The notes beneath the pieces were generated by a model. That model was not told where the DNA came from and did not search any database. It worked only from the letters and a program-made list of their open reading frames with translations. This document shows positions 33,278 through 60,630 of a stretch of 64,000 nucleotides of DNA, piece after piece. Every line of letters starts with the position of its first letter. Position 1 is the first letter of the stretch. Source of the DNA: Acidobacteria bacterium Mor1 (GTDB taxonomy: Bacteria > Acidobacteriota > Polarisedimenticolia > Polarisedimenticolales > Polarisedimenticolaceae); NCBI GenBank assembly GCA_001664505.1, contig CP011806.1:2907263-2971262 (forward strand). Reading direction: 5' to 3'. Both the position numbers and the translations under genes were made by a program.

Positions 33278-35887
33278 TCAGGGGTGGTTGCGGGAGCTCT
33301 GACGGTAGTCCCGAAGGCGACGGATCAAGCCTCCGAACCCCACAGGGGCCACACCCCGTTTCCGGTTGGCTGCGCCGATCTCGCACGCCACTCTCCACTG
33401 CTTGAACAGGACCCTGTAGGCGGCGAACAGGCTGAAGGCGGGGTCGTAGATGTGGGTCGCCTCGGAGGTCACCCCGTTGAGTTCGACGATCTTGAAGTTG
33501 CGTCCCCGGGCCAGGTCCTCCGGGTCAGGCGTCCTCAGGTCGTAGCGGCCGAAGAAGAATCCCTCGTAGCCGCGGCTGATGCGATCGATGGTCTCCGCGA
33601 GGGCGGCGGTGGCCAGTCTTCCACCGTCGAGGAAGATCGCGCCCCGGCAGTGGGTGCCCAGCTCGACCAGCTGAATCTCCTCGCCCGCGGCGGGCACCCG
33701 CTCCTGGTCCGTCTGCTGCGCCAGATAGATCGACGCCATGCTCACCGCCCGCGGGTCGTCGAGGATCAACCGCTCGACGGTGCGCTCTCCGTCACCGACG
33801 ACGACAGGCATGCGCTTCTCGGTGATCGAGAAGATGCGCCCTCGCTCCTCGTGGGGATAGCGGTAGTAGAAGACCCCGAACTCCTCGCCGGGCGCGTATT
33901 CCTGAACGATGGTGTCGTAGTCGGCGGCGACCAGGTAGCTGCGAAGCGCGGCCTCGTCGCGAACTACCTGGACCCCTGAACCCCGCTGTCCGGCGTCAGG
34001 CTTGAGCACCACCGGATAGTCGAGCCCCGCCTCGTCGATGAACCGCCGGCAGCTCTCGACCCGCTGCTCCACCCCGTGCGACCGGGGCAACAGCCGATGC
34101 CGCGCGACGAATTCGCCGGCGCCGGCCAGACCTTGGAGAATCTCCTGCTTGGACTCGTCGATGAACCCGCTCGCATCGATGGCCGGATTCGCCGCGGTGA
34201 ACAGCAGCGGGCCGCGCAGCCGGATCGCCTGCCAAACCAGGTACAACACCACCGGCGGATAAACGATCCAGGGCGGCCAGAACTCCCAGTGGATCTTGCG
34301 CTTGATGCTGCCGGCCAGCATGCGCCGGCCCCGGTAGCTGAAGAGCGGCACGACCAGCTTGACCAGCAGGTACATCAGCAGCACCGCCGCCAACACCGCC
34401 AGCGGGGTGTACTTCTCGACCACCGCCAGGTACTCGAGCAACTCGCCGCCGATCCACATCGAAAGCGCCACGAGGATCGGCGTCCAGAGCAGCACCGCCA
34501 GCAGGAAGTAGCCGGCGAAGGCCAACATGCGGGTGCGCAGCATACCGGCAACGAAGTAGGTGGCCAGGCGGGTTCCGGGCAGGAAACGGCTGATGCCGAT
34601 GACGATCGGCCCCCGGCGATCGAACCAGCGGGAGCTGACCTCGACCCGCTCCGGCGAGATCCACCAGCGCAGCGGAATGCGGTCGAGAGCCGGGCGTCCG
34701 ACGAGGCGACCGGCGAGGAAGATCAGCATGTCGCCGACGAAGATCCCGAACCCGCATGCCGCCACCGCCGGAAGAAACTCCATGCGTCCCTGGGCCACCA
34801 GGATGCCGGCGACGATGCAGGTCAGATCCTCGCTGATCATCGTCGCGAGGGCCAACACCAGGAAGATCACGAACAGCGCCAGCCCTCCGGCCGGAGGCAC
34901 TCGGCGAGGATCGAAGGAGCGTGCGGCGGCCTGCAGGCGATCGGCCTCCGCCTGGGAGCGGGTCCGCCCTTCTCCCGCTTCGACGCGATCGAGAAACCCG
35001 CCGAGCCAGAGCGCCGTGTTCTCTCCGTCCATGAAGGGAAAGAAGTGGTCGGGCGAACGATGCTCTCCGTCGCGCAGCAGCATCAACTCGCTCTGGGGCA
35101 CGAGCCGGTGGTGTTCGTACGCACCGGCGACCGGCACCAGCGGGTCGAGCTCCCCGTGGATGATCAACATCGGCGGCTCGAAGCGCTGCAGCAGGCCGCG
35201 CAGCGGCCGCTGGTCGGTGTCGTAGAAGTTTCGCGCGTACTCCAGCGACAGCATGCCGCCGTCGAACAGGCCGAAGTGGGGCACCCCCTCGTAGGCAAGC
35301 CAAAGACCTGCCACCTGGGCACCGTGCACCAGGTGGTTGACCCGGTAGTCGCCCAGGAGTTCCAGTTCCTGCACTCCGGTCGCGGCCAGCATCGAAAGGG
35401 ATTCGATCCGCTCGGGGCGCTCCTCGTACATCCGCAGCGCGACGGCGCCGCCCATGCTGAACCCTGCGACGTGGGCCTCCGGGATGCCGAGTTCGTCCAA
35501 TAGCTTCCAGACGACGGCAGCATGGCCCCGGGCGGAGTAATCGGGCAGCCCGCGTCCCGAGCGCCCGAAGCCGGGCAGATCCAGCGCCAGCACCCGGTAG
35601 CGATCGGCAAGGCCGGGAATCACCGAGGAGAAATCCACCTTGCGGCCGGGGCTCCCGTGGAGCAACACCACTACCGGCGCGGCGGGATCTTGCGGCCCTC
35701 GATCGATGTAGACCAGCGGGCTCAGCCGGCCGGCGTCGAGCCGCTCACCATCCCAGACCGGCAGCTCGGCAACCGCGTCTCCCTCGGCAGGGACGATGAC
35801 GTGGGGATCGAGCCAGCGTTTGAGATGGGAGGCTGCCAGGAGCGCCAGATAGGCGATCAGCAGACCGGTCAGCAGGCGGCGGTTCAC
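33278..35887 (-). CDS. Three-domain fusion: alpha/beta hydrolase - DedA - ATP-grasp ligase
   Basis: 869 aa from GTG 35887. One N-terminal helix, then residues 50-305 an alpha/beta hydrolase: VVLLHGSPG oxyanion loop, GFSMGG (142-147, Ser144), GELDPL (Asp248) and GEHRSPDH (His276). Residues 330-545 are a DedA/SNARE-associated membrane domain (SEDLTCIVAG, RFLPGTR at 434-440). Residues 570-830 are an ATP-grasp ligase: VVLKPDAGQRGSGVQVV (Lys629), EYAPGEEFGVFY and VELNGVTSEATH (Glu802, Asn804). Its GTG overlaps the dinB-like stop by 4 nt (GTGA), so translation is coupled to an olsB-olsA-dinB cluster. DedA proteins scramble lipids, so a lipid-modifying and moving multi-enzyme is plausible. Confidence 0.85.
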   Translation of the reverse strand: MNRRLLTGLLIAYLALLAASHLKRWLDPHVIVPAEGDAVAELPVWDGERLDAGRLSPLVYIDRGPQDPAAPVVVLLHGSPGRKVDFSSVIPGLADRYRVLALDLPGFGRSGRGLPDYSARGHAAVVWKLLDELGIPEAHVAGFSMGGAVALRMYEERPERIESLSMLAATGVQELELLGDYRVNHLVHGAQVAGLWLAYEGVPHFGLFDGGMLSLEYARNFYDTDQRPLRGLLQRFEPPMLIIHGELDPLVPVAGAYEHHRLVPQSELMLLRDGEHRSPDHFFPFMDGENTALWLGGFLDRVEAGEGRTRSQAEADRLQAAARSFDPRRVPPAGGLALFVIFLVLALATMISEDLTCIVAGILVAQGRMEFLPAVAACGFGIFVGDMLIFLAGRLVGRPALDRIPLRWWISPERVEVSSRWFDRRGPIVIGISRFLPGTRLATYFVAGMLRTRMLAFAGYFLLAVLLWTPILVALSMWIGGELLEYLAVVEKYTPLAVLAAVLLMYLLVKLVVPLFSYRGRRMLAGSIKRKIHWEFWPPWIVYPPVVLYLVWQAIRLRGPLLFTAANPAIDASGFIDESKQEILQGLAGAGEFVARHRLLPRSHGVEQRVESCRRFIDEAGLDYPVVLKPDAGQRGSGVQVVRDEAALRSYLVAADYDTIVQEYAPGEEFGVFYYRYPHEERGRIFSITEKRMPVVVGDGERTVERLILDDPRAVSMASIYLAQQTDQERVPAAGEEIQLVELGTHCRGAIFLDGGRLATAALAETIDRISRGYEGFFFGRYDLRTPDPEDLARGRNFKIVELNGVTSEATHIYDPAFSLFAAYRVLFKQWRVACEIGAANRKRGVAPVGFGGLIRRLRDYRQSSRNHP

Positions 35888-36417
35888 CGGGAAACGGTGG
35901 TGGTCTCTCGCCAGTGCTGGAGCGTGGACGGCGCGACACCGAACTCCGAGGGAGCCTCGAAGCGCTGGGTCGCCAGCAACGCCTTGATCAACGCGAAGTG
36001 GTGGATCGTGTGGCTCATCAAGAACTGCAGCTCACGGGCCGTCGAGGAGCGGCTCCAGATCTCGTCGCCGTTGTCGTTGACGGGACGCTCGGCCTTGACG
36101 CGAATCGAGGAATCGTCGGTCCGCTCGGCAAGTCCGGCCAGGCGCTCGGCCAGGGAGCGCAGGCGATGGCAGGACCGCTCGCGGCTGCACTCGAGTTCGG
36201 GTTCTCGGGCGCGGCTGACGTAGTCGACGGAACCGCTCTCGATGCCCCGCAGGAACGACTCGTAGAAGTCGATCAGGTGCCGGAACTGTTTGCCGACCCC
36301 GTCCCAGGACGCGGCGGGGTCGCCGCAGAACAGGCGGTCGTCGAGGCGTTCGATCAGGTCGACACCGCTCTGGAGGATCAGCCGGTTGTCCTCGGCCAAA
36401 ACTCTTGCGTCAAGCAT
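35884..36417 (-). CDS. DinB-family protein
   Basis: 177 aa from ATG 36417 (GGAG 5 nt upstream), 10 nt after the olsA stop; GTG 36420 is one codon longer. DinB fold: four helices with metal His residues in QFRHLIDFYESFL and FLMSHTIHHFALIKALL. Members include bacillithiol/mycothiol-type thiol transferases and many unknowns. Embedded in a lipid cluster and overlapping the fusion gene by 4 nt, so it likely takes part in the same pathway rather than in DNA damage response. Confidence 0.8.
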   Translation of the reverse strand: MLDARVLAEDNRLILQSGVDLIERLDDRLFCGDPAASWDGVGKQFRHLIDFYESFLRGIESGSVDYVSRAREPELECSRERSCHRLRSLAERLAGLAERTDDSSIRVKAERPVNDNGDEIWSRSSTARELQFLMSHTIHHFALIKALLATQRFEAPSEFGVAPSTLQHWRETTTVSR

Positions 36418-36427
36418 CACGACTCCG

Positions 36428-37186
36428 TCATCTCACCGGCCGGAACTGGGCCATCGACGCTTCCCACAACTGGGTGGTCAATCGCTTGCGATCCGGCTCC
36501 AAGATGCCTTTCGATCCGAACTCGATAGTCGCCTGGATCCGCTCGAGCCGGGCCAACCCCAACAAGTGCGGAACGAGGCTCATATCCCCCACCCAGCATA
36601 CGGCATCCCGGGCGCTCTTCGCTCCCGGCGGCGTGGCGTACGACACCGTAGCATAGTAAACCGGGACTTCGGCGCGGGCCGCTACCTCGAGCAATGACGA
36701 TTTGAAGGGCAAAATGGTTTCGCCCTCGGAGCTCGTCCCCTCAGGAAACAGCACGATTCCCACGCCTTGTTCCATCCGCTCGCGGATCTCCGCCAAAACC
36801 CGGGGAATGTCCCGTTTGAGGCGGCGATCGACGAACAGGGTCCCCGCCGCCCGGGCCACCGTACCGAAGAGCGGCCACTCCCCTACCTCGGACTTGGCCA
36901 CGAAGGCGCACTCGATCGCTCCGGCGACCAGGAAGATGTCCAGATAGGTCAAGTGGTTGCAAACAAGGAAGAACGGCGCCGGAGGACGCTCCCCGACCAC
37001 CTCGACGTCGACGGCGAGGGCCCGGGCCATGCGGAGCCCCCATCGCCGGGTCGCGGTAGCCCGCAGGCGAACCGCACTGCGACCGCTCAGTCGCGCCCGC
37101 GGACCGGCAGTCAGCACCGCGAGCAGGCCGATCAGGGTGTAGACGACCGCCAGGCCCAGGCGCCACGGGACTCGGAAGAGACTCAT
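36428..37186 (-). CDS. olsA: Lysophospholipid/1-acylglycerol-3-phosphate acyltransferase, OlsA-like
   Basis: 252 aa from ATG 37186, 5 nt after the olsB stop, with its ribosome site (GAGG) overlapping that stop; the long open frame upstream is a shadow of olsB. Membrane helix near the start, then PlsC motifs: NHLTYLDIFL (NHxxxxD), FVDRRLKRD, LFPEGTSSEG and VPVYYATVSY. OlsA adds the second acyl chain to N-acyl-ornithine. The tight linkage to olsB is the reason for OlsA rather than general PlsC. Confidence 0.85.
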   Translation of the reverse strand: MSLFRVPWRLGLAVVYTLIGLLAVLTAGPRARLSGRSAVRLRATATRRWGLRMARALAVDVEVVGERPPAPFFLVCNHLTYLDIFLVAGAIECAFVAKSEVGEWPLFGTVARAAGTLFVDRRLKRDIPRVLAEIRERMEQGVGIVLFPEGTSSEGETILPFKSSLLEVAARAEVPVYYATVSYATPPGAKSARDAVCWVGDMSLVPHLLGLARLERIQATIEFGSKGILEPDRKRLTTQLWEASMAQFRPVR

Positions 37187-37191
37187 CGACC

Positions 37192-38001
37192 TCAGGCGAA
37201 GTAGAGCTTGTGCAGGTCGCCGTCGAGTTCGAGGACGTCGAGCATCACCAGGTAGTCGATGGTGCGGAAGAAACGGTCGAGGGCCGGGAGCCCGGTGACC
37301 TTGGCTCCGTAGCGCAGGTAGAGGCGGAACAGCTTCGGGATCTGGACCGCAGCTTGGGGGTCCCAGGGAGTGTCTTCGTCGTAGCATTCCCAGCCGGGCT
37401 TGGGCAGCACCCCGAGAGGATCCAGGGTGTGTCCGTTGGCGACGAGGTACTCCATGACCTGGCGCCCCTCGGTGGGGTCCTGGCTGGTCAGCGAGCAGCA
37501 TCCGAACAGGTAGCGCTTGCGGTTGTGGATCATGTAGGCCGCAAGCCCTTTCCAGAGAAGGAACAGGGCCCGGCGATTGCGGTGATCGACGGAGATACAG
37601 GCGCGGCCGACCTCGACCGAGTCGGCGAGCACGTGAGGGGGCATCCCTTCCAGCTTGAACTCGTCGGCCGAGTAGAAGCCCTCGTGAGCCCGGGCCATCT
37701 CGCTCGTCTGCATCCGGTAGGTGCCGATGATCTGCCCGGTCTGCCGCTCCTCGATCACCAGGTGATGGGTCACCCCGTCGAAGCGATCGGCGTCCCGCCC
37801 CGTTTCGAAGGACTCCTCGAGCCCCTCGCCGAGTTCCACGTTGAACACCTCGAAGCGCAGCCGCTGCAGCGCCTCCAGATCCTGTTGGTTCTCGGCGAAA
37901 CGGACGGTGTAGCGATTCTCGGTCAAGGAGTACGACGGCAGCTGATCCCGGAATACGGGATACACGGCAGACGTCGTGGTGACCTGTTCCTTCGAGCTCA
38001 T
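37192..38001 (-). CDS. olsB: N-acyltransferase, OlsB-like (ornithine/aminolipid synthesis)
   Basis: 269 aa, ATG 38001 with AAGGAG 8 nt upstream. GNAT-type fold of the hemolysin/OlsB family: ENRYTVRFAENQQDLEALQR, LRFEVFNVELGEG, TYRMQTSEMARAHEGFYSAD, VEVGRACISVDHRNRRALFL, FGCCSLTSQDPTEG. OlsB transfers a 3-hydroxyacyl group from ACP to the alpha-amine of ornithine; glycine or other amines are alternatives in related enzymes. First gene of the four-gene cluster, behind a possible promoter. Confidence 0.87.
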   Translation of the reverse strand: MSSKEQVTTTSAVYPVFRDQLPSYSLTENRYTVRFAENQQDLEALQRLRFEVFNVELGEGLEESFETGRDADRFDGVTHHLVIEERQTGQIIGTYRMQTSEMARAHEGFYSADEFKLEGMPPHVLADSVEVGRACISVDHRNRRALFLLWKGLAAYMIHNRKRYLFGCCSLTSQDPTEGRQVMEYLVANGHTLDPLGVLPKPGWECYDEDTPWDPQAAVQIPKLFRLYLRYGAKVTGLPALDRFFRTIDYLVMLDVLELDGDLHKLYFA

Positions 38002-46811: not shown

Positions 46812-49646
46812 TTGGACGACTCCGACCCTATCCACGAGGGCACGACCCAGCCGCTGCCCCCGAATCCGGCTCCACGGAAACGGCCGACGGAGCTCCCGAA
46901 ACAGATCGGGCGTTACCGGATCCTTCGCTACCTGGGCGAAGGGGCGATGGGCGAGGTGCTGCTCGCCTTCGATCCCACCCTCTCGCGGCAGATCGCCCTC
47001 AAGCGCATTCGACCCGATCGGACCGGCAGCGAGGTCCTCGTGCGCCGGTTCCAGACCGAAGCCCACGTGACGGCGCTTCTGCAACACCCCTCGGTAATCC
47101 CCGTCTACGAATACCTCGACCAGGGAGAGAGCGGCTACTACACGATGCGCCCGGTCGAGGGCGTGACCCTGGCCAGCCTGATCCAAACGCTCCACGCCGA
47201 GCCGGGACGCCGCGCCGAATGGACCGCCGCTCGGCTGGTGCGGCTGTTCCTGCAGGTCTGTAGCGCGGTGGCCTACGCCCATTCGATGGGGGTGCTCCAC
47301 CGGGATATCAAACCCGCCAACATCATGCTGGGCCCGTTCGAGGAGATCTTCATTCTCGATTGGGGGATGGCGCTGCTCTGCGCCGAGCAACCCTCTCAGC
47401 CCAAACAGGTGCTTCCGGAACGGCTGCAAGCCCTCGCCGAACAGACCGCGTCCCACGCCCTGGTCGGCACCCCGGCCTACATGGCTCCGGAGTTGCTCCA
47501 GGGGAGCTGCGCCGCGACGCCGCAGACCGAGGTCTTCGCGCTGGGCGTGTTGCTCTACGAACTGCTGGCCTTTCGACGGCCGTGGACGGCGAAGACGGTG
47601 GGCGAGCTGATCGCGGCGATGCAGCAGGAACCGCCCAGACCGCCGAGCATCCTGCGCCGCGGCCGGGGCATCTCGGCGCGCCTCGATGCCGTGGTGCTGC
47701 GAGCGCTTGCGACGGACCCCGCGGCGCGATACCCGACCGTTCAGCGGCTGGCCGCAGACGTCGCCGAGGCGTTGGAGGGTCGCGCACCGTGGGTGCCGGT
47801 CCGCGCCGCGGCCGACGGAGAGTCCCTCTGGTACCTGGAGCGAGGCAAGAGCCAGGAGGAGGCCGACAGCATCTCGCTACGGTCGCGGGGGAAGCCCTTC
47901 AGCTTCCTCTTCCGCCAACCGCTGGGCGACAACGTCCGGCTCGATCTCGACGTCAGCTTCGGGCGCGGGACCCACCAGTTCTGGGTCGTGCTCGGCGCCC
48001 CGGTAGCCTCGGGCCCGACGGGCTTCGAGGGCTACCAGCTCGAGATCCTTCCGGGCCGCCGCAGGACCGTACGGCTGCGCCGCTCGGGCCGGGCGGTGGC
48101 CGGGGCGCGCAACCCCAGGATCCCGGCGAAGCGCTGGCATCGCATCTCGGTGACCCGCGAAGACGACCGGTTGTCCCTTTCGATCAACGGCTCCGAGATC
48201 TACACCTATCGCGATCCGATCCCGCTCCGCGGGACGCGGCTGACGCTCCAGGGTGTCAGCACCGGGCTCGATCTGCGGAACCCCCGGGTTCACCGCAGAG
48301 GTTCGGATCTTCGCGTGTCCTGTCTCGCCGTCCCCGACGCCCTGTACAACCGGGAACACTACGAGGAGGCGATGGCCGAGTACGCGACGATCGCCTCGGC
48401 CCACCCCGGCCGCCCCGAGGCGATCCAGGCCCGCTTCCGCTCCGCCCTCTGCGCCGTGGAGATGCAGCACAGGGAGGCCGACGCCGAGGTCGGAGAGCTG
48501 TGGCTGGGACAGGCCGAGATGTCCCTGGGCAAGGCGGGCGCCGCGGAGTCATCCTGCCTGCTCCCCCTGGGAAAGGCGATCGTGGCCCGGGCCCGGCGTG
48601 ACTCGGCGCGAGCCCACGACGCGTTGGTCAGCGCGCTGACCGACCTACCGGACGATCCCGATCTGCCGACGATCCGGGAGTGGATTCTCGGCCAGCTCCA
48701 CTCGGCAAGCGAGGACGACCGCGGCTGGGTCGCCGAGCTCCTTCCCCTGGCAATCCGCCACTGCATGGGCGGACACGGCCGGCACGCGGTGCGGGAGCTG
48801 GTGCACACCGTGCGCAATCAGTGGGAGATGCCGTCGTTCATCGTCGGCAGGGCGCAGTTCCAGCAGGGAAGCGAAACCAGCCACGCGGAGTCGATCCTGT
48901 TCCTGGCCTTCTGGGCGGGTCGCGCGTCGCTCATCGAACAGACCGCCGTCGAGCTCGTTCGTTCCGGGCACCTCCGCGCCTACCACGTGTCGGACTTCAT
49001 CTTCTCGCTGCTGGAGCTGGACGCCCTGGAGCGGGCCGAACGCCTGCTCGAGGTTCTCGATCAGCCGGCCGCAGCGGATGGTGGGTCCGAACACTACGCC
49101 CGTGCGGCCCAGGCCGCCACGCTAGCTGTGTCCGGTGACCTGGAACGGGCCACGGCGGCGTTGGCCGCGATGAAAGCGGACCCGTTCGACCGCGCCTTCA
49201 ACGGCGCCCGGCTGTGGCTGGCCCGGTCCGGCTGGAAGCACGGCGACAAGAAGCACGCGCCCCGCTATCTGAAGCCCCTGGATGACCGGGACTACTTCGC
49301 CATGGAGCACCGGGCCTGGTTCTTCCTGGCGAACGGAGATCCCCGGCGCTCCCGGCGTGAGCTCGAACCCCTGATCGACCGCGGGGACCATCTGAAGGGA
49401 CGGAACCTGGTGAATCTGCTCTACGGTGCGTACCTGCTGGCCACCCGCCGGCCCGGCGAGGCCGAGCGGACCTTCCGCCGGCTGAGGCCCACGCCGTGGC
49501 CACGCACCTGGACCCTCGGATCCCACTACGCATCAGGGCAGCTGGGAGAAGGCTCGCTGGATCGCTATCTGGAAGGCTGTTTCGACTGGGAGCGGGCGGT
49601 GCTCGAAGAGCATCGATCCCTGCTCTCGCGGGTCGCCGGGAGCTAA
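46812..49646 (+). CDS. Serine/threonine kinase fused to LamG-like and TPR domains
   Basis: 944 aa from TTG 46812, 9 nt after qor, with GAGGG nearby. Residues 33-300 are a PknB-like kinase: LGEGAMGEV, Lys64, HRDIKPAN (163-170, Asp165), then DWG (183-185) in place of DFG, GTPAYMAPE and FALGVLLYELLAF. Residues about 340-505 are a LamG/3-keto-disaccharide-hydrolase-like sandwich (SFLFRQPLGDNVRLDLDVSF, GFEGYQLEILPGRR). Residues 515-940 are TPR-like helical pairs. No membrane helix, unlike PASTA kinases, so it is soluble; this layout is an uncommon one. Confidence 0.87.
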   Translation: MDDSDPIHEGTTQPLPPNPAPRKRPTELPKQIGRYRILRYLGEGAMGEVLLAFDPTLSRQIALKRIRPDRTGSEVLVRRFQTEAHVTALLQHPSVIPVYEYLDQGESGYYTMRPVEGVTLASLIQTLHAEPGRRAEWTAARLVRLFLQVCSAVAYAHSMGVLHRDIKPANIMLGPFEEIFILDWGMALLCAEQPSQPKQVLPERLQALAEQTASHALVGTPAYMAPELLQGSCAATPQTEVFALGVLLYELLAFRRPWTAKTVGELIAAMQQEPPRPPSILRRGRGISARLDAVVLRALATDPAARYPTVQRLAADVAEALEGRAPWVPVRAAADGESLWYLERGKSQEEADSISLRSRGKPFSFLFRQPLGDNVRLDLDVSFGRGTHQFWVVLGAPVASGPTGFEGYQLEILPGRRRTVRLRRSGRAVAGARNPRIPAKRWHRISVTREDDRLSLSINGSEIYTYRDPIPLRGTRLTLQGVSTGLDLRNPRVHRRGSDLRVSCLAVPDALYNREHYEEAMAEYATIASAHPGRPEAIQARFRSALCAVEMQHREADAEVGELWLGQAEMSLGKAGAAESSCLLPLGKAIVARARRDSARAHDALVSALTDLPDDPDLPTIREWILGQLHSASEDDRGWVAELLPLAIRHCMGGHGRHAVRELVHTVRNQWEMPSFIVGRAQFQQGSETSHAESILFLAFWAGRASLIEQTAVELVRSGHLRAYHVSDFIFSLLELDALERAERLLEVLDQPAAADGGSEHYARAAQAATLAVSGDLERATAALAAMKADPFDRAFNGARLWLARSGWKHGDKKHAPRYLKPLDDRDYFAMEHRAWFFLANGDPRRSRRELEPLIDRGDHLKGRNLVNLLYGAYLLATRRPGEAERTFRRLRPTPWPRTWTLGSHYASGQLGEGSLDRYLEGCFDWERAVLEEHRSLLSRVAGS

Positions 49647-57648: not shown

Positions 57649-60630
57649 ATGCCCAACCCAGCTAACGATGTGCGCATTATCCGTGTCTTCGTTTCTTGTC
57701 CCGGCGACATTGCTGCGGAGCAGAAGCAACTCAAGCAGGTCATCGAGGACATCAACCGCACCGACGGCATGGAGAAGGGAGTTCGACTAGAGCCCTGGAA
57801 ATGGGACCAAGACGCGGCTCCGCAGATCGCCCAAGCTCCCCAAGCAGTCGTTGACGCTCAGACGCCGAACTTCGACATCTATCTCGGTTTCATGGCAGAT
57901 CGATTCGGCACTCCGACCGACGGCTATGGCTCAGGAACCGAGAAGGAGTTCCGCGACGCTCACAAACGGTGGGGCGAAACCGGCAAACCATGGATCGCCT
58001 TCTACTTTCGTGACGACCTTCCCGCGCCCAAAGGGCTTGAGGCCGCGAAGCAGTACATGAAGGTCGTCGCGTTCCAAGAAGAGCTCAACCAACTAGGGCT
58101 TACGGGGATGTACGCACTTTCCGACGACGGGGAGCACTCGTTCTACCGGGTCATCAGCACCCACCTGCGACTCGTACTTCGTCATATCCAGCAATGCAAC
58201 AAAGGCGACGGACCGACACCCAAAGAGCCCCGCAGCGTCCCTGCCGCCTACCGCGAGTGGCTCGGCAGCCAATGGTCAGAGATGGAATCGCTAGGGCTTC
58301 GCCGGCAGCACGGCCAGGCGGTGCGATTGAATCATGTCTACGTTCCGCTCGTCGGCAGCGGTGGATGGCAGCGAATCGAGATGTACTCCGGCTATCCCGA
58401 GGCGGTAGCACGAGCGGCCATCCGGTCGGACGAGGAGGATGCGCCGGCCTTGCTCCTCGATCTCCTCGACAGGCACTCGCTTTATGTCCCTGGAGCCCCT
58501 GGCTCGGGAAAATCGACGTTCTGCCGCTGGGTCGCCGCGCTAACGACGCTGGCATCGATGCCCGAACAGGAAGTCGATGTCCCCGACGGCTACCAGGAGA
58601 GCTTTCCCGAGCAGCTTCAGCGCCGGTTACCGTTGCTGGTGCCACTGCGCCAGTTCTGGAGCCATCTACCGGAACTCCGAGGCAAGCAGAAGCTAACCTG
58701 CGCACAATTCGAGCGAGCGCTCGAGCGATGGCTCTCCGAGGAGAAGCCAGGGCGATTGACGTGGACCCAGGCCAAACCCCACATCGACGCGGGCAGAGCG
58801 CTACTCCTGTTCGACGGCGCTGACGAGATCCCGCAATCCCACGACGATCCGGACAAGGGCTGTCCGCGCTCGATGTTCCTTTCGGGCCTCGCTGAAGCCA
58901 AACGCCAGTGGCACGCAGACAATCGATTCCTGCTCACGGCCAGGCCCTACGGCCTGGAAGAGGGGGACGCCGAACGAATCGGGCTCCCCGAGATCCCCAT
59001 CGCAAATCTGGGCGAAGAAACGCAAGCCCTGCTGATCGAAAAATGGTGCCGCATCCTGAAGGAGACGCCAACTCTGGCCGAACACGCTGCCCAGCAGATG
59101 CACCGTCACCTCGCGACGCGTCCGGAACTAAGCGAACTCCAGGGCAACCCGATGTTGCTGACCGCCATGTGCATCGTCTACGACGAAGGGGGGCGCCTAC
59201 CGCAAGACAAGGCGGACTTGTACGACCGTATCGTCGATAACGTGCTCTACAACCGCTTCCATGATCGAGGGCGGATCGACCATGTGCGCAACCGATTGAG
59301 GGTCGTCGCCCACGGGATGCACACCGGTACCGGCATCAACGAGGACCGCTCAGCACCTCTCGCTGAAGCAACCCACGACGAGGTCGATCGAATGATCGGG
59401 GCCTATCAGGATGCCAACCGGGCTAAAGAGGTGGGGTACCAAGGGGTCGTCGAGGCCCGAGAGGAGCTTCTGGGCCAAACCGGCATCCTGCTTCCGCGGG
59501 ACCACAGGACCGCAAACTTCTACCACCTGTCATTCCAGGAGTTCCTGGCAGCGGAACGCATTCTCGGCCTGGAAGCAGAGCCGCTGGAGAAGGTGTTCGT
59601 CGAGCGGGCTCGGGTGCCTGGATGGCGCAACACCCTGGCCTTTCTCTTCGGCTGCAAGCTCGCCAGCAGCAGATCAACAGATCCGACGATCCGGCTGCTG
59701 GAAATTCTGATCGAACGAGCAAGCGAGGGTAACTCACTAGGTCTCCAGGTCACCGTCGCCGATTGCTTGGAGATCGTGCTGGGTCGCGAGCTGCGCTTGC
59801 GCGACGAGATCGAGCAGAAGTTCCGGCTGATCGCGTTGAAAGCGATCGAGGAAGAGTTCGAAGTCAAGGCCCGCTGTCACCTGGCAACGATGATGGGACG
59901 CCTGGGCGATCGACGATTAACCGAGGATCCTCGGGATCCTGACGGTTATGTAGAGATTCCTGTCGGTACCTACAACCTGGGGGACGAATGGGGAGAGCAC
60001 ACCATTGCCGAGTCGTTCGCCCTTTCGCGCCACCCCGTGACCAACGCCTGGTTCGAGCAGTTCATTTTGGACCGAGGCTATGAACGCGAGGAACTCTGGT
60101 CCTCTGATGGCTGGAACTGGCGTGTGCCGAAGAAGGCCGTCGAGCCCAGCTACTGGCGACACGGGTTGTTGAGCGCCGGCAATCAACCGGTTGTCGGTGT
60201 TTCTTTCTGGGAGGCCGAGGCCTTCTGCAACTGGGTTGGTGGTCGGATACCTACAGAACAAGAGTGGGAGGCGGCGGCACGCGGCCCGGAGGCTCCAGAG
60301 TACCCCTGGGGGAACGACTGGGAGGACGGGATATGCAATACGGCGGATTCAGGGCTCGGCCTGCCGAGCCCTGTGGGTGTATTCCCGCGGTCTCGGTCGG
60401 CCGCCTTCAAGCTCGAAGACATGGCCGGGAACGTATGGGAATGGACCCGTTTTGGATCAAACGGCGAGATTGCCAAAGGCGAAGACTTTCGAGTGTTGCG
60501 CGGCGGCTCGTGGGCCCACGATCGCTACGACGCTCTTTGCGCGTACCGCGACCTTTGGCACACCGGCTACCGCGCCAACTACGTCGGGTTTCGTGTATGT
60601 GTTTCGTCCCCCGTCTCTTTGGGCCGCTGA
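57649..60630 (+). CDS. STAND NTPase: TIR-like/DUF4062 - NACHT - FGE-sulfatase domain protein
   Basis: 993 aa, ATG 57649. Residues 8-120 are DUF4062/TIR-like (RIIRVFVSCPGDIAAEQKQL, FDIYLGFMADRFGTP, SGTEKEFRDAHKR with a Glu). Residues 275-560 are NACHT: Walker A GAPGSGKST (282-290), Walker B LLLFDGADE (385-393), sensor LLTARPYG. A helical arm follows, then an FGE-sulfatase/C-type-lectin-like domain from 765 (IPVGTYNLGDEWGEH, RHPVTNAWFEQFI, NVWEWT, RGGSWAH, NYVGFRVCV). It lacks the FGE catalytic Cys pair, so it is probably a binding module. Architecture matches bacterial NLR-like conflict proteins: effector, NTPase and sensor. Codon use is lower in GC than neighbours. Confidence 0.88.
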   Translation: MPNPANDVRIIRVFVSCPGDIAAEQKQLKQVIEDINRTDGMEKGVRLEPWKWDQDAAPQIAQAPQAVVDAQTPNFDIYLGFMADRFGTPTDGYGSGTEKEFRDAHKRWGETGKPWIAFYFRDDLPAPKGLEAAKQYMKVVAFQEELNQLGLTGMYALSDDGEHSFYRVISTHLRLVLRHIQQCNKGDGPTPKEPRSVPAAYREWLGSQWSEMESLGLRRQHGQAVRLNHVYVPLVGSGGWQRIEMYSGYPEAVARAAIRSDEEDAPALLLDLLDRHSLYVPGAPGSGKSTFCRWVAALTTLASMPEQEVDVPDGYQESFPEQLQRRLPLLVPLRQFWSHLPELRGKQKLTCAQFERALERWLSEEKPGRLTWTQAKPHIDAGRALLLFDGADEIPQSHDDPDKGCPRSMFLSGLAEAKRQWHADNRFLLTARPYGLEEGDAERIGLPEIPIANLGEETQALLIEKWCRILKETPTLAEHAAQQMHRHLATRPELSELQGNPMLLTAMCIVYDEGGRLPQDKADLYDRIVDNVLYNRFHDRGRIDHVRNRLRVVAHGMHTGTGINEDRSAPLAEATHDEVDRMIGAYQDANRAKEVGYQGVVEAREELLGQTGILLPRDHRTANFYHLSFQEFLAAERILGLEAEPLEKVFVERARVPGWRNTLAFLFGCKLASSRSTDPTIRLLEILIERASEGNSLGLQVTVADCLEIVLGRELRLRDEIEQKFRLIALKAIEEEFEVKARCHLATMMGRLGDRRLTEDPRDPDGYVEIPVGTYNLGDEWGEHTIAESFALSRHPVTNAWFEQFILDRGYEREELWSSDGWNWRVPKKAVEPSYWRHGLLSAGNQPVVGVSFWEAEAFCNWVGGRIPTEQEWEAAARGPEAPEYPWGNDWEDGICNTADSGLGLPSPVGVFPRSRSAAFKLEDMAGNVWEWTRFGSNGEIAKGEDFRVLRGGSWAHDRYDALCAYRDLWHTGYRANYVGFRVCVSSPVSLGR

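Follow-up and report, generated by a model that had tools for sequence, protein, structure and literature searches.

A fused alpha/beta-hydrolase, DedA and ATP-grasp protein in a candidate aminolipid operon of Acidobacteria bacterium Mor1

What might a bacterium do with a hydrolase, a lipid-transporter fold and an ATP-dependent ligase joined in a single chain? Such a protein, 869 residues long, is encoded at 33278..35887 on the minus strand of the window, the 64,000-nucleotide stretch of contig CP011806.1 analysed here. A first-pass annotation had read it as an unusual way to build a vectorial lipid machine. We asked whether the fusion is genuine, on which side of the membrane each domain is likely to lie and which pathway the protein may serve.

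The fused gene and its hydrolase domain

The frame opens with a GTG codon at position 35887, lying within a GTGA shared with the stop codon of the preceding dinB-like gene (a 4-nt overlap), and ends with TGA. It is free of internal stops, and its GC3 of 0.86 is similar to that of the neighbouring genes. All three domains claimed for this chain score above their Pfam cut-offs: Abhydrolase_1 (PF00561; 1.9e-30, 106.8 bits versus 25.8), VTT (PF09335; 9.6e-14, 52.4 bits versus 33.9) and, as a weak match, RimK-like ATP-grasp (3e-5, 24.2 bits versus 21). The AF2 model of the full chain has a mean pLDDT of 85. The full fusion protein is present as a single copy in the 6.0-Mb single-contig genome, an acidobacterial one from the family of Candidatus Polarisedimenticola.

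A broken frame or a fusion made by assembly would have undone this reading, but the frame is intact, and full-length homologues occur independently in many genomes of several phyla, so that an assembly artefact can be dismissed. At 40-58% identity, three-domain homologues are found in many Acidobacteriota (in the window's own family, its class and other sampled families), Planctomycetota, Verrucomicrobiota, Rhodothermota and Balneolota; the named genomes among them belong to Rhodothermia, Verrucomicrobia, Balneolaceae and Planctomycetota. Judged by these sequences, the three-domain fusion is old. A single origin does not fit the tree of 61 ATP-grasp domains: the three-domain label has to change at least five times along branches with good support, and the fusion must therefore have been gained or lost repeatedly. 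Two-domain DedA-ATP-grasp proteins are present in Planctomycetota, Desulfobulbales and Azospirillum, and the ATP-grasp domain stands alone elsewhere. One ATP-grasp-only homologue (L045, 273-1418) lies on a 4-kb contig labelled Euryarchaeota, which could reflect transfer or misbinning.

The alpha/beta-hydrolase (ABH) domain spans residues ~58-303 (34979..35716, minus strand), as indicated by Pfam, conservation and fold matches, and has the triad S144/D248/H281. Counted over 28 full-length homologues, each of these three residues is conserved in 27. The first-pass annotation had proposed His276 as the catalytic histidine; this residue lies inside an insertion and is a gap in 26 of the 28 homologues, and the conserved histidine is His281. 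The other signatures it listed, S144, D248, the DedA motif (R434, P437 and R440), K629, E802 and N804, were borne out. The lone exception to the triad, a Balneolaceae protein (L031), has lost H77, S144, D248 and H281 while its DedA and ligase residues are intact, so the ABH domain is dispensable.

By fold, the hydrolase matches several lipases and esterases, among them ABHD6 and a PlaF-type membrane phospholipase A (PDB entry 6i8w); the 6i8w match is no closer than those to several other esterases. Like 6i8w and ABHD6, the domain combines the alpha/beta-hydrolase fold and a Ser-Asp-His triad with a predicted N-terminal membrane anchor: a transmembrane helix is predicted at residues 3-26 (35810..35881, minus strand; from the model and the charge distribution), and its position after a basic N-terminus, seen also in homologues and suggesting an N-in orientation, may make for a PlaF-like layout with a periplasmic catalytic domain. 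Unlike those enzymes, it is joined to a DedA domain and a ligase, and it is missing or dead in several homologues.

The DedA domain and the predicted topology

The DedA/VTT domain occupies residues ~335-515 (34343..34885, minus strand), as delimited by Pfam, conservation and AF2, with E353/D354 and R434-R440 at the putative re-entrant tips. E353, D354 and D386 are present in 28/28 full-length homologues, and R434, P437 and R440 are likewise invariant. In the whole-chain model, the domain consists of three crossing helices and two broken helix pairs (335-365 and 412-449), the latter fitting re-entrant hairpins. Most homologues have a strongly basic N-terminus, and residues 513-535, which follow the last crossing helix, are also basic. 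The DedA protein UptA has an N-out topology (PMC11474028). Helix order and count, charge bias and this precedent together predict a periplasmic hydrolase and a cytoplasmic ligase. A cytoplasmic ABH domain, as would follow from four DedA transmembrane helices, was rejected, since the full model contains re-entrant-like broken hairpins and three crossings, matching N-out UptA.

DedA relatives transport undecaprenyl phosphate (UndP; UptA) or PE (PetA) (PMC11474028, PMC12893004), and the fusion may likewise transport a lipid. The likeness to UptA and PetA lies in a VTT match above cut-off, in acidic and two-arginine re-entrant tips and in the predicted N-out/C-in arrangement of UptA; UptA is also the best DedA-specific NCBIfam match, and the spacing of R434 and R440 is that of its R112 and R118 (PMC11474028). 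Two-arginine DedA proteins form the UndP-flippase class, COG0586 (PMC10127716), and because the fusion has both arginines its cargo might be UndP. It differs from UptA and PetA in that its VTT domain is joined to ABH and ATP-grasp domains and is linked to aminolipid genes. Fusions of enzymes to DedA domains are known as such: the main text of a DedA survey describes PAP2, rhodanese and pyridine-nucleotide oxidoreductase fusions, and ABH or ATP-grasp fusions are not among them (PMC10127716). Among the papers searched, no precedent for a DedA-ATP-grasp protein was found, nor an aminolipid ligase.

Linkage to aminolipid genes

The fusion gene is the last of an operon in the order olsB-olsA-dinB-fusion, with spacings of 5, 7 and -4 nt. 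The first gene encodes an OlsB-like GNAT N-acyltransferase (37192..38001), the second an OlsA-like O-acyltransferase of the PlsC family (36428..37186) and the third a DinB-like protein with invariant H48/H137/H140/H141 (35884..36420), all on the minus strand. The OlsB- and OlsA-like proteins score below the cut-offs of the corresponding NCBIfam equivalogs (132 bits versus 320 and 139.5 versus 300), so the operon may use an amino acid other than ornithine. The same gene order is seen again across phyla, and in a Verrucomicrobial locus (L028) a gene for bifunctional OlsF (398 bits) follows the fusion in place of OlsBA.

Among 396 sampled genomes of the Acidobacteriota phylum, 54 contain the ATP-grasp part. 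OlsB is found in 47 of these versus 28 of the 342 others (Fisher p 1e-33, a value that overstates the linkage because related genomes are not independent), and in 39 of the 47 it lies within 12 kb of the ATP-grasp gene; in the remaining 7 of the 54, no OlsB match was found. OlsA is present in 48/54. The DinB partner occurs in 34 of the 396 genomes, all of them inside the set of 54, even when unlinked (p 2e-35).

Unfused versions show the same associations. In Vibrio and Photobacterium replicons, DedA, ATP-grasp, DinB, NRDE (TANGO2-type), YHS, DoxX and OlsF are encoded, in that order, by separate genes; V. cholerae VCA0646 is a proven OlsF, the last gene of a putative four-gene operon (PMC12186959). 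The ATP-grasp gene of Variovorax adjoins an OlsB gene. Paracoccus denitrificans PD1222 has three adjacent separate genes for the ligase (PDEN_RS24485), an alpha/beta hydrolase (PDEN_RS25810) and a VTT protein (PDEN_RS24475), the last being convergent. Taken together, the operon, the phyletic pattern and the unfused homologues tie the fusion to aminolipid synthesis. With the hydrolase and ligase predicted on opposite sides of the DedA domain, these links speak for a vectorial lipid machine, in which flippase and ligase may act together.

This linkage bears on what the DedA domain carries. If it were an undecaprenyl-phosphate flippase, the ligase and hydrolase might work on intermediates of the envelope or of peptidoglycan, and the aminolipid genes would be neighbours that are co-regulated. 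The invariance of R434/R440 and the UptA match are in keeping with this, as is the fact that CphA and Ddl-like ligases make peptides. We nevertheless judge it improbable, given the association with OlsB, OlsA and OlsF across phyla, including the non-orthologous replacement by OlsF, and given that the neighbours listed include no repeatedly seen family of cell-wall genes.

The operon also raises the question of whether the ABH domain could be the second-step O-acyltransferase in place of OlsA. The alpha/beta-hydrolase OlsI performs this step in the planctomycete Singulisphaera (PMC12493201), and four ABH-fusion operons are without OlsA. However, the sampled genomes concerned (G253, G367, G004 and G337) all carry OlsA elsewhere, most ABH-fusion operons contain OlsA, and the domain is predicted to lie on the periplasmic side, without acyl-ACP. 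An acyltransferase role is thus very improbable.

A salvage or turnover pathway would also make use of a lipase-like domain outside and a ligase inside: the periplasmic lipase would deacylate an aminolipid, DedA would import the lyso-lipid or free N-acyl amino acid, and the ligase would re-conjugate it. The neighbouring NRDE hydrolases (TANGO2-type, with an N-terminal Cys), which frequently adjoin DedA-ATP-grasp genes where the ABH domain is unfused, would suit such turnover. Because many homologues retain DedA and ligase but have lost the ABH domain or its active site, deacylation cannot be an obligatory first step, and we regard the salvage direction as unlikely.

The DinB-like proteins, which keep H48/H137/H140/H141, and the NRDE/TANGO2-type proteins, which start Met-Cys-Thr, are tightly tied to the ligase (L041 6400-7811, L122 9057-10361 and L124 9114-10534). 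Upstream of the Desulfobulbales DedA-ATP-grasp genes (L036, L037 and L039), a 240-residue membrane protein is repeatedly encoded ahead of NRDE, and in L037 a protein that by eye resembles a MurG-type glycosyltransferase precedes it; the two upstream proteins of these loci that were scanned had no Pfam match.

The ligase domain and a candidate route to extended headgroups

Aminolipids take the place of phospholipids under stress, and some have extended headgroups (Gly-Ser, Orn-taurine). The ATP-grasp domain, residues ~531-866 (33290..34297, minus strand), is cyanophycin-synthetase-like and has a hydrophobic helix (WEFWPPW...) near its N-terminus. K629, K691, E802 and N804 are present in 28/28 full-length homologues, and the segment modelled alone has a mean pLDDT of 91.6. 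Its nearest relatives are cyanophycin synthetases, both by profile (8e-10) and by fold (6.8e-12; TM-scores against CphA of about 0.5), followed by glutathione synthetase and D-Ala-D-Ala ligases. In all these enzymes, ATP activates a carboxylate, which is then joined to an amine; in cyanophycin synthetase the growing chain is the acid and the small molecule the amine. The catalytic residues and a GDGxxTxxxLI motif are common to the fusion and CphA1/CphA2. In contrast to these, the fusion is without the Mur-ligase and N domains, is about 21% identical and has the extra hydrophobic, probably membrane-hugging N-terminal helix; it is not an equivalent of cyanophycin synthetase, having only the ATP-grasp domain and reaching 30.9 bits versus an NCBIfam cut-off of 850. 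The helix is retained even in homologues without DedA, as expected if the substrate is a lipid. One locus (L089, in G306) has an in-frame TAG inside the ATP-grasp frame.

We propose, at somewhat less than even confidence, that the fusion is a membrane-spanning aminolipid headgroup-processing protein, in which the ligase extends, DedA moves and the hydrolase trims. OlsB and OlsA (OlsF elsewhere) would make an acyloxyacyl amino-acid lipid at the cytoplasmic face. The cytoplasmic ATP-grasp domain would phosphorylate the free carboxylate of this lipid and condense it with an amine-bearing small molecule, which could be another amino acid or an amine, for instance taurine. DedA would hand the product to the outer leaflet, where the periplasmic hydrolase, as a lipase, might trim or turn over its acyl chains. 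The intact fused frame, the operon and phyletic linkage to OlsB/OlsA/OlsF, the ATP-grasp fold and motifs and the predicted topology support this computationally; we infer from them the substrate, the amine donor, the direction of transport and the role of the hydrolase. Against the scheme stands that it gives no clear part to the DinB and NRDE partners.

The ligase might also work in the opposite sense, attaching either an amino acid or an acyl group to the amine on the aminolipid's side chain (such as the ornithine delta-amine), with the soluble partner as the activated acid. The same operon and fold evidence would serve, and the operon is silent on which partner gives the carboxylate; the closest family, cyanophycin synthetase, activates the growing chain instead, so we consider this direction rather unlikely. 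Under the headgroup-extension scheme, the operon resembles the OlsBA, OlsF and OlsHI systems in being headed by OlsB and OlsA relatives, with OlsF filling the same place elsewhere. It differs in its ligase and flippase: the parts of the aminolipid literature covered here (the review PMC11631085, searched for such an ATP-grasp ligase or dedicated flippase, and PMC12493201) mention neither.

Lipids with both kinds of extension, Gly-Ser and Orn-taurine, have been described; how the Gly-Ser dipeptide lipid is made is stated to be unknown (PMC10191378). The fusion family offers a specific candidate for both a Gly-Ser-type headgroup ligase and an aminolipid flippase and, as part of a conserved operon for amino-acid lipids that contain no phosphorus, a testable one for the enzyme that builds two-amino-acid membrane lipids. 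It is possible, but we hold it only tentatively, that the operon encodes a pathway to dipeptide-type aminolipids, with a single polypeptide that makes the headgroup bond inside, flips the lipid and trims it outside. Such a pathway would be spread in fused and unfused form from Acidobacteriota to Vibrionaceae, and its ligase would be the class so far missing for aminolipids extended by an amide. Some culturable bacteria, P. denitrificans PD1222 among them, have the parts as separate genes, which makes the question directly testable.

PADLOC assigned no defence family. Two other multidomain proteins are encoded in the window, both on the plus strand: one in which a 3-keto-disaccharide hydrolase-like domain comes after a Ser/Thr kinase domain (46812-49646), and a 993-residue protein combining a NACHT NTPase with a C-terminal formylglycine-generating-enzyme-like domain (57649-60630).
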